Shown: piece by piece, positions 28,262 to 54,985 of the stretch
Layout: each line of letters opens with the position of its first letter
Numbering within the stretch: the first letter of the stretch is position 1
Assembly (NCBI RefSeq): GCF_036687315.1
Contig: NZ_CP144683.1
Coordinates: 1,302,001-1,366,000, forward strand
Length of the DNA: 64,000 bases
Direction: 5' to 3'
Source of the DNA: Sphingopyxis sp. TUF1
Lineage (GTDB): Bacteria; Pseudomonadota; Alphaproteobacteria; Sphingomonadales; Sphingomonadaceae
Position numbers and translations under genes: made by a program
Notes under the pieces: model-generated
Databases searched by the model: none
What the model was told of the DNA's origin: nothing
Seen by the model: the letters and a program-made list of their open reading frames with translations, nothing else

Positions 28262-28465
28262 CTACCTGCCTGCATCGCGGGTCCAGCCGCGATGCTCGAC
28301 GAGCCGCTGGCCGTTGTCCACGAAGTCAAATCCGACCCAGACTTCCTCGACATCGTGTACGCATAGGGCCGAACGTATCAGCAAAACGGCGTACTCTAAG
28401 AGAGTATTTGGTGAGTTGGTTTGCAGCGTGCCTGAAGGGATGTGGTCGCCGAAAGTTCGCTAACG
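28262..28465 (-). pseudogene. possible remnant of a coding sequence, no start codon
   Basis: On the minus strand a frame closed by TAG at 28264-28262 reads ...GDHIPSGTLQTNSPNTLLEY, AVLLIRSALCVHDVEEVWVG, FDFVDNGQRLVEHRGWTRDA. It looks protein-like but has no ATG or GTG, and is bounded upstream by a stop near 28470. It abuts the VapC45-like gene. It may be the tail of a gene lost when the toxin-antitoxin island arrived. I do not recognise the family. Confidence 0.25.
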
Positions 28466-28861
28466 GCCAATAGCACGGAAGCGTTGCCCGGACATGGGTA
28501 CCTCAAAGCATCCATTGGCATTGAGACGATGCTGATCACGAATAGCGGGCCAAAGCATCATCAGCCGGGCGGCTTGATGAAAGAGTGGTCGTTTCTGCAG
28601 CGATGGACCCAGGAAGAAGCCTACAAGACCTTGTCGTATAAAGAGTTCTCTCGATGGCCGACGCTTGGCTATCCGCATATCAGCTGAAATTACTGCCCAA
28701 CGCCCTTCCTTACCTAACTCGGGAATCCATTCTTCATCTTTTAGATTGGATCGACCAAACTTCGCGCGAAGCGAAACAATCTCATCCCCATCGGCCTCGA
28801 AAACGGTGTGCAATGCCGTCGCGAGCCTAGGCGGAAGATCATTGTCGATCATGACTTTCAC
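28460..28861 (-). CDS. VapC45-like PIN-domain protein (putative toxin)
   Basis: 133 residues whose ATG overlaps the upstream stop (ATGA). The N-terminus MKVMIDNDLPPRLATAL, then GRSNLKDEEWIPELGKEG, WAVISADMRIAKR and a final hydrophobic strand GFFLGP is the PIN-like VapC45 pattern. Acidic residues D6, D8, D43-E44 and D61 could form the metal site. PIN toxins are usually RNases. It is translationally coupled to an antitoxin-like gene and the pair has lower GC than its neighbours. Toxin activity is a family-level inference. Confidence 0.7.
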   Translation of the reverse strand: MKVMIDNDLPPRLATALHTVFEADGDEIVSLRAKFGRSNLKDEEWIPELGKEGRWAVISADMRIAKRRPSRELFIRQGLVGFFLGPSLQKRPLFHQAARLMMLWPAIRDQHRLNANGCFEVPMSGQRFRAIGR

Positions 28862-29556
28862 GCCGGTGCAAGCCGTCCAATCTGCCGTTCAAAGGCGAGA
28901 GCATCACGAACCACCGAAGTTGCCAGTTCGAAAATGCGGGCGACCTTATCTACCGACCGACCCTCTGCTTGGTAAGCTTGGGCCAGCCTAATCGTTGGCA
29001 CCCCTCCGGCGTCCGTGATCGGCTGACCAAAGGAACGCTCTGGATCGGCGACGACCTGCCTGCTCTTTTCGAAGGGGAACCAACGCGTCGCCTTCTCCTC
29101 GTCAAAATCGAGATCGAGAAAGGAGCGCTCGATTATCTTTGGAAAGGCGTGTTGGCGACTTTTAAGATCAATGACATCGTGTGAACCATCGTCATCCAAT
29201 CGCTCAAGAAATAAGCGCTGACCATCTGTTCGGAAACGAGCGCTTGAGAACGGATGGCTATCTTTGGCTATTTCGGCAGCGGTCGACAAGCATAAGCGGA
29301 TGGTGGGCAGGCCGAAGCCTATATTGCGCAGCTTTCCAACCATCCGGGCTTCGATCAAGTCTCGAAAACCAAGCAGTGGTTCGTCCTGATCAAGCCCATA
29401 TTGAGGCGTCCACAGCGGCTGCTGTCGCACCCTTGGACCGTGATGATCATATGAATAACCAAAGAGCCAACGGCGGATGGAAGTCGACGGCACACCGAGA
29501 AGTTTACCAGCTTCCGCCAGTGAATATGCTCCAATGCCATATGCCGCGTCACTCAT
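28858..29556 (-). CDS. VapB45-like antitoxin with MerR-like N-terminal HTH and DUF433
   Basis: 232 residues from the ATG at 29556 (AAGGAGAG ribosome-binding site). Residues ~8-60 (YSLAEAGKLLGVPSTSIRRW, then LGFRDLIEARMVGKLRNIGF) form a MerR-type helix-turn-helix unit. The C-terminal part (GVPTIRLAQAYQAEGRSVDK, VARIFELATSVVRDALAFER) is the DUF433 helix bundle of VapB45-type antitoxins. It precedes and overlaps the PIN-like gene, the order expected for an antitoxin that also represses the operon. Codon use is less GC-rich than the flanks. Confidence 0.75.
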   Translation of the reverse strand: MSDAAYGIGAYSLAEAGKLLGVPSTSIRRWLFGYSYDHHGPRVRQQPLWTPQYGLDQDEPLLGFRDLIEARMVGKLRNIGFGLPTIRLCLSTAAEIAKDSHPFSSARFRTDGQRLFLERLDDDGSHDVIDLKSRQHAFPKIIERSFLDLDFDEEKATRWFPFEKSRQVVADPERSFGQPITDAGGVPTIRLAQAYQAEGRSVDKVARIFELATSVVRDALAFERQIGRLAPA

Positions 29557-29628
29557 GGCGCTCTCCTTATCACGTCCATATAATTCACAAGAATGAATTT
29601 GCGCCTTATCGGTGCCAATGAGCACCGC

Positions 29629-49841: not shown

Positions 49842-51902
<2,061 letters not shown>

Positions 51903-52142
51903 GTCGATTGGAGCTCACCATTTTACCGGTTTTAGGCAAAGCAATGAGCTCTTGACTTACAGAAAATTTACGGGTTCTCTGTTCGCAGAGGCGTAGTAGC
52001 CGAGGAGAGGGGCCACCGTAACAGAAACTGATGGTTTTTCGAGACTCGCGGGTTGAACAGTTCTTACTGGGTGCACTCTGCGGGAACGCCACTCTAAAAT
52101 GGAGTGCGTGGAAACCCTTTACTTCTTGGCCCCCTCCGATTC
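51903..52142 (+). ncRNA. structured leader RNA upstream of the reverse transcriptase
   Basis: No long frame fills this stretch. A stem GAGCTCA/TGAGCTC (51911-51917, 51945-51951) is followed at once by a -35-like TTGACT (51952). Then come a UUCG tetraloop hairpin (CTCTG TTCG CAGAG, 51977-51990) and a long-range stem GAGGGGCCA (52007-52015) with TGGCCCC(C)TC (52127-52136). Inside that stem are GGGTT/AACCC (52050-52054, 52113-52117), CAGT TCTT ACTG (52058-52069) and ACG(C)CACTC/GAGTGCGT (52086-52109). The closing stem ends just before the RT ATG, like the a1/a2 pair of retrons. Folding was done by eye. Confidence 0.6.
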
Positions 52143-53675
52143 ATGCAGAATGCAATTCGCTCCGAAATAAAGCGCGTTTCTGATCGTGTTTTTGCTCGGA
52201 AGAAATCTAGGCTAAATACAGAAGAAGACTATAGAGAACGCTTTGAAAAGCGCACCGGCATTGAGGCTGGCCTGCCTCCAGACAGCGGCCTTGGACCTGT
52301 CAATCGGCATTTTGACCCAAAATACTGCAAGAGAAATGCAAATTTCTTAGCAAAGACGATATGGCATAAGGTAATTTCGGGGCAATACGCACCACAGCCC
52401 GCCCTAAATTTTTTCATCGACAAGGAAGATGGAACGAAAAGAAGCCTGATGGCATTTTCGATTCCGGATACGGCACTAGCCAACATACTTATGAGAAGAC
52501 TAAGAGAGAGGAATATTAAAAGATTCTCTCCCCACTCATTCGCATACCATCCTGATAAGAATATATTTGATGCAATACTAGATCTTAGATCATTTATCAT
52601 GGATACAGATAAGATATATTCTGTCCAGATAGATTTTAAGAATTATTTTGATTCCATTCCCAGCACATATCTATTGAGACTTTTGGATAATCCAGAATTA
52701 TTCTCGCTTACCCCTTCAGAGAAGAAAGTTCTCAGGGAGTTTATTTTTCATAAGTATGCTCAGCGAGGCGCCTACGAGAAAGGCGAATTTCTCTCGCGAT
52801 GGAGGGGGACGCCTCAAGGCTCATCCATCTCTCTCATTTTAGCAAATCTTGCAAATCACTCACTCGACACAGCGCTCGAAAAGCTTCCGGGAAAGTTCGT
52901 GCGATTTGCAGATGATGTCACCGCTTTGTGCGAGTCATATGAAGACGCGATAAAAATCGAACGATGCTTCTTTGAACATTGCCATCGCACTGGCATTGAA
53001 ATGAACAGAAAAAAATCTCCCGGGATAGCTGTTCTAGCTAACAAAGAAGCAGAGATTAGGACTGTAGATCATATAGACTATCTCGGATACAGATTCACTG
53101 AAAATGGCCTCATTCTTTCTGACAAAACCGTATTAAGAATAAAAGCAAAGATATCGAAAATGGTATCCGTGTATTTAACGCACTACATTTCCAATGCCGG
53201 ATTTAATCACTATCGCGTTGGGGTCGCTGGTCGTTACGATTGGGATCTACTCGGACTGATATCAGAAATTAGAAACTACTTATACGGCGGGCTATATGAA
53301 GGCGAAATCGGCGCCATGATGAAAAGCGGCAAAAAACTTAGAAAAATGAAAGGCTTGATGAGCTTTTACGCTCTTCTTGACGATAAAGAGCGACTGAAGC
53401 ATCTCGATGGATGGCTTGCGGGAGTCATCGAGAGGGCCATGCGAAAGCGCAACGCGATTCTAAATGATAAATATAATTTGGCTGGTCTCACACCGAGCTC
53501 AGAAAGCCTGATACGAGGGGATTGGCTCAATCTTGATGCTTGGAAAGGCGATCAAAAGCCCGAGGTGAGGTTGCCGAGCTTTGTGCGAGGCTGGCGCGCA
53601 GCTCGGAAATACTATTTGACCTTTGGCCTTAAAGACGTTGAGCCACCGAAGTATGGATACCAATACAAAGGTTGA
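52143..53675 (+). CDS. reverse transcriptase of an uncharacterised, defence-like group
   Basis: 510 residues from the ATG at 52143 (a GTG at 52104 adds 13). Palm motifs: YSVQIDFKNYFDSIP (D164, D170), RGTPQGSSISLILANLAN (QG at 225-226), KFVRFADDVT (FADD, 255-258, instead of YADD), GIEMNRKKSPGI and DYLGYRF. The QGSSIS-L form (no SP), the lack of maturase X, D/En or integrase parts, and a ~170-residue C-terminal helical domain (YGGLYEGEIG, LMSFYALLDDKERLKHLDGW) argue against a group II intron or DGR enzyme. It stands alone, AT-rich among GC-rich genes, with a structured leader. It is probably a DRT/UG- or retron-type defence RT; the subgroup is not determined. Confidence 0.85.
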   Translation: MQNAIRSEIKRVSDRVFARKKSRLNTEEDYRERFEKRTGIEAGLPPDSGLGPVNRHFDPKYCKRNANFLAKTIWHKVISGQYAPQPALNFFIDKEDGTKRSLMAFSIPDTALANILMRRLRERNIKRFSPHSFAYHPDKNIFDAILDLRSFIMDTDKIYSVQIDFKNYFDSIPSTYLLRLLDNPELFSLTPSEKKVLREFIFHKYAQRGAYEKGEFLSRWRGTPQGSSISLILANLANHSLDTALEKLPGKFVRFADDVTALCESYEDAIKIERCFFEHCHRTGIEMNRKKSPGIAVLANKEAEIRTVDHIDYLGYRFTENGLILSDKTVLRIKAKISKMVSVYLTHYISNAGFNHYRVGVAGRYDWDLLGLISEIRNYLYGGLYEGEIGAMMKSGKKLRKMKGLMSFYALLDDKERLKHLDGWLAGVIERAMRKRNAILNDKYNLAGLTPSSESLIRGDWLNLDAWKGDQKPEVRLPSFVRGWRAARKYYLTFGLKDVEPPKYGYQYKG

Positions 53676-53722
53676 GTTTGAACTTAGGCAACACATACCA
53701 ACACGACGCTACACTCCCACCC

Positions 53723-54235
53723 ATGCGCGCCCGGAACCCCCTCTACGTCATGGCCAAGCCGCCGCCGGAGGTACAGGCGGCGATCGTCGCGCTGCCGCGC
53801 AACGATCCCGGGCGCGGCCCGGACCTTCTCCACGTCACGCTCATCTCGCTCTACGACCTGCACTATGCGCCGCCCGAGTGGCTGCCCGCGACCATCGCCG
53901 CGCTGGACAGCTTCGCCGCGGCGCCCTTTCCGCTCCGCTTCGACCGGATCGAGAACCGCAAGGCGGTGACGCTGCGCACGCGCGATCCGCTGGCCGAGGC
54001 GCGGGCGTTCCAGAAGGCGCTGGTGAACCACCTGCTGCGCGAGAAAGCGCCGATCATGGACGGCACCACCCCCGAACCGCACATCACGATCAACTATCGC
54101 GGCGACCGGCTGGGTTCCCAGAAAATCCCGCCGATCGGCTGGACGGTCGATGAAATCATCCTGACCGAAAGCATCGTCGGCAAGACCACCCATGTCGAGC
54201 ACGGCCGCTGGCCGCTGCGCGGGGTTGCAGGCTGA
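53723..54235 (+). CDS. 2H phosphoesterase (2'-5' RNA ligase family)
   Basis: 170 residues from the ATG at 53723. Two H-x-T/I-x motifs, LLHVTLISLYD (~40) and EPHITINYRGD (~120), give the twin histidines of 2H phosphoesterases such as ThpR/LigT. They act on 2',3'- or 2',5'-phosphodiesters in RNA or cyclic nucleotides. It follows the reverse transcriptase by 47 bases on the same strand, but has host-like GC, so it is more likely a resident gene next to the island. A second member of the same superfamily is at 59475. Confidence 0.82.
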   Translation: MRARNPLYVMAKPPPEVQAAIVALPRNDPGRGPDLLHVTLISLYDLHYAPPEWLPATIAALDSFAAAPFPLRFDRIENRKAVTLRTRDPLAEARAFQKALVNHLLREKAPIMDGTTPEPHITINYRGDRLGSQKIPPIGWTVDEIILTESIVGKTTHVEHGRWPLRGVAG

Positions 54236-54270
54236 TCGATGGCGGACGCGGAAGGGCTCTTCCTTCTTTC

Positions 54271-54345
54271 GTCACCCCGGATTTGATCCGGGGTCCAGCT
54301 TTTCACCGTCGCTGAGCGGGACCCCGGATCAAGTCCGGGGTGACG
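54271..54345. repeat. BIME-like paired palindrome, GTCACCCCGGATTTGATCCG family
   Basis: GTCACCCCGGATTTGATCCGG and the inverted CCGGATCAAGTCCGGGGTGAC, ~35 bases apart. The right arm overlaps the end of the DUF2726 gene. Confidence 0.86.
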
Positions 54346-54985
54346 ATGAGGAATGGGGTCGCCCCACCAGCTTGCGCACCATCGCCCGCACCTCGGCGGG
54401 CGTGTCGCCGCTGACCACCTCGACATAGCCGATGCCCGCACGGCGCAGCGCCTCGCGTTTCACCGCATCGCGCGCGGCGCTATTGTCGCTCAAATGATGA
54501 CCCTTGCCCTGCATCTCGACCGCGTGGAGCGGGCGGCAATCGGCGTCGACGATCAGCAAATCGACGCGCTTCGAATTGACTGCAAAGAAGGCCGCCTCGT
54601 CCGGGCTCGCCAAAATCTCGCCCAGCGACACTTGTCCCATCGCGCGCCAGCCGGGGCTTTCGTCGGCCAGTGCCTTGTCGAGCACCGAGAGCAAGCGCCG
54701 CTCGCCCGCGTTGAGCAAGGGCCGCGCGGTAAACGGCGCTGCCATCACGACACGAAGCTGCTCGGCGGCGGTCGCGATCGGGTCGAGCGGTTTCGATGGC
54801 TGCACCGCCTTCGCCTTGCCGTCCCACGCGCGCTTTCCGCCGCGCCTTTGCCACCGCTCGCGTCGCTCGGCGCGTTTCCACCCCTCGACGATCCGCTCGA
54901 CGCCCATGCCGATCACCGCGCCGACCGCAAGGACGAGCGCCAGCAACAGCGGTTTGTCGATCAGGGCCACGATCTCACTCGGCAT
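54329..54985 (-). CDS. DUF2726 domain protein with membrane anchor
   Basis: 218 residues from the ATG at 54985; an ATG at 54997 is possible. One membrane span (LIDKPLLLALVLAVGAVIGM) and a basic linker (RRERWQRRGGKRAWDGKAKA) precede a C-terminal DUF2726 domain: LLNAGERRLLSVLDKAL, VSLGEILASP, FDLLIV-like RVDLLIVDADCRPLHAVEMQGKGH and RDAVKREALRRAGIGYVEV. The fold is related to PD-(D/E)XK nucleases. The last residues (PHSSSSPRT) come from the adjoining repeat. Role is unknown. Confidence 0.78.
   Translation of the reverse strand: MPSEIVALIDKPLLLALVLAVGAVIGMGVERIVEGWKRAERRERWQRRGGKRAWDGKAKAVQPSKPLDPIATAAEQLRVVMAAPFTARPLLNAGERRLLSVLDKALADESPGWRAMGQVSLGEILASPDEAAFFAVNSKRVDLLIVDADCRPLHAVEMQGKGHHLSDNSAARDAVKREALRRAGIGYVEVVSGDTPAEVRAMVRKLVGRPHSSSSPRT

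Follow-up and report, generated by a model that had tools for sequence, protein, structure and literature searches.

The reverse transcriptase locus

The window analysed here is a stretch of 64,000 nucleotides (nt) from Sphingopyxis sp. TUF1 (contig NZ_CP144683.1, positions 1,302,001 to 1,366,000). All coordinates below are positions in this window, and L and G numbers denote loci and genomes of relatives. Between thiC, which ends at 51902, and a 2H phosphoesterase gene, whose ATG is found at 53723, the window carries a gene for a reverse transcriptase (RT), preceded by a structured leader. A sequence-only reading of this DNA had described an AT-rich RT of 510 residues between these two genes, and the open reading frame (ORF) 52143-53675 as well as its base composition could be confirmed, as the RT gene has a GC content of 43.5% compared to 64.6% in the window, 64.9% in thiC and 68.8% in the 2H gene. 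The ATG at 52143 is favoured as start codon over an upstream GTG by relatives that begin with MQNAI or similar. RVT_1 is the only Pfam family that matches the protein. The features of the gene and of its downstream flank are given here with reference to SenDRT9, the DRT9 system of Salmonella (PDB 9NLV, 9NLX, 9IOA, 9VKU, 9VMA).

52143-53675, + strand: reverse transcriptase of 510 aa, assigned to the DRT9/UG28 family by PADLOC (Drt9, 510 bits) and Foldseek with the predicted model (ranks 1-6 DRT9)
52905-52916, + strand: codons of FADD 255-258 (YADD in SenDRT9-like rows)
53649-53666, + strand: codons of the tail KYGYQY 503-508, with Y504 and Y506 as probable priming tyrosines (invariance of Y504; analogy to SenDRT9)
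53698-53722, + strand: right edge of the variable slot (the match of congeners restarts at 53697-53698 in 18 of 29 loci)

Family assignment of the reverse transcriptase

The Drt9 model of PADLOC covers residues 1-506 of the RT with 510 bits (1.3e-153), and the runner-up model reaches 110 bits; the scores to UG17 and Drt3a are 92.8 and 79 bits. The best sequence match in the PDB is DRT9 (E=2e-55). When the AlphaFold2 model (pLDDT 90.7) was compared by Foldseek, ranks 1-6 were all DRT9 chains, with a TM to the query of 0.82-0.86 at 28-29% identity, after which group II intron RTs follow at TM 0.54-0.56 (rank 7: 0.56). Because the PADLOC score, the closest solved sequence and the predicted fold all point to DRT9, the RT is assigned to DRT9/UG28, where its Drt9 score marks it as an atypical member. 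An undescribed RT class, which the sequence-only reading had considered, is ruled out by the Drt9 score of 510 versus 110 bits, and a group II intron RT by a score of 138 bits versus a cut-off of 300. Among relatives, the Drt9 model gives 712 and 632 bits with the SenDRT9-like L039 and L049, and 538, 529, 516 and 484 bits with L042, L001, L034 and L048.

The palm motifs D164/D170, QG225-226 and FADD 255-258 were read as claimed before, and both catalytic aspartates are present. Within the best 120 of 517 relatives, a simple pattern finds FADD in 102, YADD in 12 and another or no such motif in 6, and PQGSS is found in 111. Five aligned SenDRT9-like rows possess YADD, PQGTS and about 15 residues fewer before the QG motif; L048 and L124 also have a shorter insert at this place. 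Counting SenDRT9 residues on the alignment to the PDB sequence match, the latch residues K98/R104 reported for SenDRT9 (PMC12489045) correspond to K94/R100 of the window RT, which are invariant in 40 aligned relatives. The C-terminus reads KYGYQYKG and thus places tyrosines at 504, 506 and 508; two tyrosines near the end are a mark of the SenDRT9 type, in which Y496/Y498 are reported as primers (PMC12483538). Y504 is invariant in 40 aligned relatives, and the second tyrosine shifts its position among relatives.

Relatives and distribution

A search of 5.8 billion proteins, in which 7,997 candidates were scored, yielded the 517 relatives at E<=1e-30, and the best 120 of these are 52-89% identical to the window RT, the window's own protein apart. 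Near relatives come from sources named as Sphingomonadaceae or Sphingomonas, which suggests a sphingomonad host. A 37-row tree places the window RT within a clade of 27 rows (100/100), with P0002 (89%) as nearest row. Four SenDRT9-like rows lie across a branch with 98/95 support, and L034 and the pair L048/L124 stand in between. By this tree, the window's DRT9 branch is separate from the Salmonella DRT9. The long branches of the SenDRT9-like rows and the outgroups meet and the root is unsure, but the split between the branches is independent of the root. L039 is not among the tree rows, and its placement rests on the 712 bits to Drt9 and on its aligned motifs.

The RT is rare. Counting the window's own genome and one broken copy, it occurs in 4 of the 396 order-level genomes, in 5 of 398 genomes of the phylum (own included) and in 6 of 238 genomes in the family of G890, and none of the 18 same-genus genomes in the order-level set carries it. 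G183 and G921 are alone in their orders (1/348 and 1/110), and no further locus came from searching the genera around G670, G1660 and G1540. Scans of viral contigs returned zero relatives with the window RT, L124 and L033, and only already-known contigs with L037 and L122. No match was obtained in E. coli genomes, for which the DNA of L042 was the only query, or in phage records at E 1e-20 and 1e-30, and a plasmid search gave two records. The pattern GGCGTAGTAGCCGAGG is present in 71 viral stretches, of which the RT-bearing ones had all been known beforehand.

Broken RT loci are found at L035/L036, L044, L121 and L123, each broken differently. On a Thioclava plasmid, L048 (3001-5131) is a DRT9 relative in which a SLATT gene overlaps the end of the RT gene, and its putative loop UUAGAUUAUCUACC is without a run of four U (U4).

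A conserved non-coding RNA upstream of the reverse transcriptase

The covariance model R1 was built from the leaders of L042, L047, L043 and L037 only, with the window excluded, and was searched against both strands of 40 sources (324 kb), 11 of which are viral stretches, taken from the 71, with a shared 16-nt motif but without an RT. The R1 match in the window spans 51990-52140 and scores 37.5 bits (E=2e-6), compared to 19.1 bits for the next-best match there. It also matches L001, L041, L033, L122 and L035 at E<=1.1e-5, each directly upstream of the RT. In alignment A6 of ten leaders, which was fitted to the structure of the model, 94.2% of the cells are paired and 30 of 43 pairs show two-sided change; in the controls, none of 500 shuffles equalled any of five measures, and slid structures reached at most 44.7% paired. 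The four-row MAFFT starting alignment has 97.6% paired cells, with two-sided change in 12 of 43 pairs. By comparison among relatives, the leader is a real conserved non-coding RNA (ncRNA). A conserved ncRNA directly upstream, a trait of UG28/DRT9, is thus found at this locus. The folding energy of the leader is unremarkable (z -1.64), and 11 of 200 shuffles fold equally well.

Several loci were left out of the counts: L045 is near-identical to L042, the 5' half of the L044 leader is unrelated and its RT is out of frame at the active site, deletions in L121 and L123 run from the middle of the ncRNA into the RT start, the RT of L125 is without its N-terminus, and the contig of L040 begins inside the leader. 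L035 was retained for its RNA despite the broken RT. The leaders of L034, L048 and L124, which R1 does not match, had their loops placed by eye and were used solely in the loop-repeat test described below. The elements of the leader are as follows.

51952-51956, + strand: TTGAC, a -35-like box of the putative ncRNA promoter (spacing conserved)
51990-52139, + strand: predicted DRT9-branch ncRNA (R1 match)
51990-52001, + strand: SL1, 5' hairpin GGC-GUAGUA-GCC (alignment A6)
52004-52015, + strand: 5' strand of the closing stem P2 (two-sided change in 7 of 12 pairs, 98.2% of cells paired, ten leaders)
52015-52035, + strand: SL3 (fold with the template loop open; inner helix 98.3% paired)
52045-52084, + strand: SL4 (loop-open fold; two-sided change in 10 of 11 pairs)
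52087-52110, + strand: SL5, hairpin directly 5' of the template loop (loop-open fold; two-sided change in 7 of 8 pairs)
52111-52127, + strand: putative open template loop GAAACCCUUUACUUCUU (A6 and SenDRT9-like leaders), in which 52123-52126 (UUCU) take the place of the SenDRT9 U4
52128-52137, + strand: 3' strand of the closing stem P2 (loop-open fold; A6)

The conserved order is thus SL1, closing stem, SL3, SL4, SL5, an open loop of 16-17 nt, the closing strand and the RT start. The long-range stem that had been proposed earlier (52007-52015 with 52127-52136) is real and equals the closing stem of the ncRNA, at about 52004-52015/52127-52137; A52015 could alternatively pair in SL3. In the minimum free energy (MFE) structure of the window, at -59.1, part of the template loop is paired, and keeping the loop unpaired gives the conserved layout at -57.3, a cost of 1.8 kcal/mol. 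The loop is open in the own MFE structure of L037, L041, L042 and L047, and in L043 and the window only if it is held open. From the end of the ncRNA to the RT start there are 3 nt in the window and 3-21 nt across the ten leaders. A template loop has been described at a comparable place in DRT9 and DRT10, in DRT10 just 3' of SL5 (PMC12632851, PMC12483538).

In 12 of 13 leaders, near-identical ones included and with L041 as the exception, TTGAC starts 37-39 nt upstream of the GGCG hairpin, and this spacing places the RNA start near 51990. A generic scan of 51850-52200 for sigma-70 promoters and terminators found none. The three Rfam matches at E<=1 within 51500-54500 do not reach their gathering scores and lie outside the leader.

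The template loop and the missing U4

In the literature, the poly-U tract of DRT9 is called "universally conserved" (PMC12483538, PMC12632851). The readable SenDRT9-like leaders, four in number since the loop of L040 is unreadable, agree with this and have the loops CUUAC-UUUU-ACU (L039), CUUAC-UUUU-ACUU (L127), CUUAA-UUUU-ACUU (L128) and CUUAA-UUUU-AAUU (L049). At the same place the window has UUUAC-UUCU-U, reading ACUUCUU. Its branch relatives have CUGAC-UCUC-A (L042/L047), CUGAC-UCUC-C (L043), CUGAC-UCUA-A (L037), CUUAC-UCUA-U (L122), CUUAC-UUUA-A (L041), UUUUUCUUUUAU (L033), AUGUAUUACA (L001) and, with the broken RT, GAUUAGAUUA (L035). The aligned tetramer is therefore UUUU in 0 of 10 branch leaders versus 4 of 4 readable SenDRT9-like ones, and the loop tetramers vary between UUCU, UCUC, UCUA, UUUA, UAUC and UACC. 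In seven of the ten branch leaders, the entire ncRNA is free of U4. Of the remaining ones, L033 carries a U4 and a U5 beside the aligned tetramer, L041 has its run in SL4, and the window's sole run of at least four is the U5 at 52035-52039, which lies outside the loop. The five letters that precede the tetramer are (C/U)U(G/U)AC in 7 of 10 branch leaders, and CUUAC and CUUAA in two SenDRT9-like leaders each.

The sequence-only reading would have been refuted by placement in a known DRT type with the same leader, of which the first half holds and the second does not. The protein falls within a known DRT type, but its leader is not that of the studied DRT9s: as judged from the aligned leaders, the layout in this branch is DRT9/DRT10-like and the U4 template is absent. 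The published covariance model of DRT9 was seeded by BLASTp with SenDRT9 and comprised 201 systems, and the published RT tree held 438 homologues, the two sets having been made differently; the window's branch may have been missed by the covariance set. In the part of the literature covered by our searches, no report of a DRT9 without poly-U was recognised.

For the loop-repeat test, 12 loops were used, taken from nine of the ten A6 leaders and from L034, L048 and L124. Their direct repeats sum to 32, compared to 31.3 in shuffles (p=0.45), so that a DRT10-like A-B-A' rule finds no support in this test. The window loop itself contains CUU-CUU, and the loops of L034 and L124 have 2-nt repeats only. 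SenDRT9-like loops (L039, L127, L049) carry a direct repeat of 5-6 nt around U4, such as UUACUU-UUACUU, and the repeats in the four SenDRT9-like loops exceed those of all shuffles (0/3000 as good). As the reported product is nevertheless poly-dA, repeats do not predict the product.

A slot shared with defence genes

A match to the 2H gene is found in 29 of 40 same-genus genomes, own included. Of 12 regions upstream of the 2H gene in other congeners, 11 contain thiC at a distance of 1.75-3.96 kb, and the twelfth ends at a contig edge. The first cargo ORFs differ by eye from region to region. Ten ORFs, one each from ten of the 11 regions, were searched with PADLOC at E<=1e-5, and four of them match: SoFic (384 bits), dCTP deaminase (472), DRT8 (439) and an OLD/Gaj/AriA-like ATPase (101). 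The comparison of congeners indicates that the slot between thiC and the 2H phosphoesterase gene is a cargo hotspot shared with defence genes. It is a convenient place to seek small defence systems in this genus.

The DRT8 gene (L173 689-2353, - strand) is a second defence RT type in the same slot of a congener. The cargo ORFs of L165, L166, L167, L168, L170 and L172 are candidate unknown defence genes, with Pfam matches only in L166 (DUF7946/DUF7947). In L160, a 5'-truncated 2H gene follows within about 60 nt after thiC, and at the slot edge of one congener (L150/L162) the 2H phosphoesterase gene is present in tandem, as partial and complete copies.

Proposed function of the system

We think it very probable that the leader ncRNA and the RT are the two components of an antiphage system that belongs to the DRT9/UG28 family. 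An ncRNA of about 150 nt would be transcribed from its own promoter, with a start near 51990, followed by the RT. By analogy to studied relatives, the RT would bind the ncRNA as an oligomeric ribonucleoprotein, and upon infection it would use a tyrosine of its C-terminus (Y504/Y506) to prime DNA and would copy the open loop 52111-52127 repeatedly. The resulting long simple-sequence DNA would kill or arrest the cell before phage release, as in abortive infection. This analysis contributes the RT family, the predicted fold, the structure of the ncRNA, the place of the loop, the tail tyrosine and the slot shared with defence cargo; transcription, priming, oligomer formation, repeated copying and abortive infection are all carried over from studied relatives. 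The part of the sequence-only reading that saw a defence RT with an adjacent structured ncRNA, whose stem ends just before the start codon, is thus probably right.

A number of observations weigh against this reading. None of the NCBIfam models scores above its cut-off with the RT, the YADD expected of a SenDRT9-type member is FADD, the lock residue R140 of SenDRT9 corresponds to H136, and the U4 is missing from the loops, as described above. Concerning the RNA, R1 has no match at E<=1 in the leaders of L034, L048, L124, L121, L123 and the SenDRT9-like loci, and viral stretches chosen for the 16-nt motif reach up to 26.2 bits (E=9e-4). The fitting of A6 to the model's structure inflates the covariation, its rows L042 and L047 are near-identical and not independent, and the outer three pairs of SL3 hold in just 70% of the cells of the ten leaders. 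At the slot, 6 of the 10 cargo ORFs have no PADLOC match at E<=1e-5. Finally, the ExoI C-terminal family PF08411 was found in none of 13 genomes (this genome and 12 relatives), the E. coli control being positive.

The nature of the DNA product

Without U4 in the loop, pure poly-dA is an improbable product. Since both the U4 and the YADD of the SenDRT9 type are absent, we do not file the window system as a SenDRT9-type poly-dA system, although it probably works in a SenDRT9-like manner up to the choice of nucleotide. It could still be that this DRT9 makes poly-dA by slippage of the RT on the UUU/UU of the loop or on the U5 at 52035-52039. The required U stretches exist in the window, the loops of L033 (64% identical) and L041 hold UUUUUCUUUU and UUU, and the enzyme itself is a genuine relative of DRT9. 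We nevertheless regard this as rather unlikely, as deletion of a single U (U124) of the SenDRT9 tract is reported to have abolished defence (PMC12483538), the U5 of the window sits unconserved in the linker between SL3 and SL4, and U4 is lacking throughout in seven of the ten ncRNAs. Another possibility is that the loop serves as a template for short tandem repeats, as in DRT3a and DRT10. If the tetramer were copied with SenDRT9-like slippage, CUUCUU in the window would give (GAA)n, and CUCU, which is present in 5 of 10 leaders (L037, L042, L043, L047, L122; two near-identical), would give (GA)n. A loop at an analogous place is used by DRT3 and DRT10 (PMC13174585, PMC12632851), but the direct repeats in the 12 loops are no longer than shuffled ones and only 2 nt long in L034 and L124, so that we consider a tandem-repeat product possible, if somewhat more likely wrong than right.

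The variable loop tetramers would also be explained if the ncRNA were merely a scaffold and the RT made untemplated or semi-random DNA in the manner of Abi, DRT1 or DRT4. DRT9 has been grouped with the RNA-templated Class 2 RTs (PMC12632851), and the (C/U)U(G/U)AC before the tetramer is conserved in most branch leaders, which makes this explanation improbable. These three readings concern the product within the DRT9 assignment, and what remains falls to a product not considered here or to there being no DRT9 system. Hardly any credence can be given to a retron, in which the leader would be msr-msd and the long stem a1/a2, a likeness that the sequence-only reading had seen in the stem ending right before the RT start. 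The NCBIfam retron models are far below their cut-offs (St85 49.7 versus 235), the leader folds into a single closing stem that encloses hairpins and an open loop, and the PADLOC, PDB sequence and fold comparisons all give DRT9. The Foldseek rows that we take by name to be retrons stand at ranks 46 and 50 among the 50 rows listed, and on these ranks and the NCBIfam scores the retron was rejected.

Within the DRT9 assignment, we tentatively propose, as a view nearly as likely to be right as wrong, that DRT9 comprises two machines. The window's branch, which has an ncRNA of its own, the FADD active site and a palm insert and which lost or never had the U4, would write mixed-base, purine-rich DNA as the loop of each system dictates, (GAA)n for the window and (GA)n for relatives, under a control without ExoI. 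In E. coli, ExoI is reported to hold the poly-dA product of DRT9 low (PMC12483538, PMC13174585). As no ExoI was found in the genomes searched, the control circuit cannot equal that of E. coli, and a different silencer, or none, is expected. If true, the proposal would link homopolymer and tandem-repeat RTs inside one family. As this branch combines the fold and RNA layout of DRT9 with the absence of poly-U, the poly-U rule becomes testable: either poly-dA is independent of U4 or DRT9s write different DNAs. The branch also provides a natural set of template loops with which to study what makes a Class 2 RT write a homopolymer or a repeat, a question linked to the bacterial origin that has been proposed for telomerase.

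Comparison with known systems

The window system resembles SenDRT9 in the fold of the whole-length RT, as seen in the predicted model, in the C-terminal tyrosines and the latch K/R, and in having, upstream of the RT, an ncRNA that combines a 5' hairpin with a closing stem and a template loop. It differs in being only 28-29% identical in structural alignments, in having UUCU for U4, FADD for YADD and PQGSS for PQGTS, and in 15 extra residues before the QG motif. SenDRT9-like leaders moreover possess a terminator-like SL6 hairpin, whereas the window ncRNA is without SL6 and ends 3 nt before the RT start. DRT10/UG17 shares the ncRNA layout with a variable template loop just 3' of SL5, according to the literature, but the window RT scores 93 bits to UG17 versus 510 to Drt9, its immediate neighbours are thiC and the 2H gene and not the SLATT of DRT10, and the branch loops show no repeat enrichment. 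DRT10 is described to prime from a serine, whereas the window RT has tail tyrosines. For DRT3a, the literature likewise describes a short repeat loop at a comparable place of the ncRNA, where an ACACAC template gives poly(GT) (PMC13174585); DRT3a differs by the 79 bits of the window RT to Drt3a and by a second RT, which is not an immediate neighbour here. Retrons share the structured RNA directly upstream of the RT, and both their RT family and their RNA layout are unlike those of the window.

Other features of the window

A strong palindromic intergenic repeat follows the 2H gene at 54262-54346, with a mir-2300 match below the gathering score. In a low-GC block at 92-1927, a D12-class adenine methyltransferase (944-1927, - strand; MethyltransfD12, E=2.8e-30) lies next to an ORF without Pfam match (92-982, + strand), which by eye has an HNH-like cysteine-rich C-terminal part, and the two may be a small restriction-modification pair. 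At 28460-29625 (- strand), low-GC HTH_66 and PIN_10 genes overlap by 4 nt and look like a toxin-antitoxin operon.

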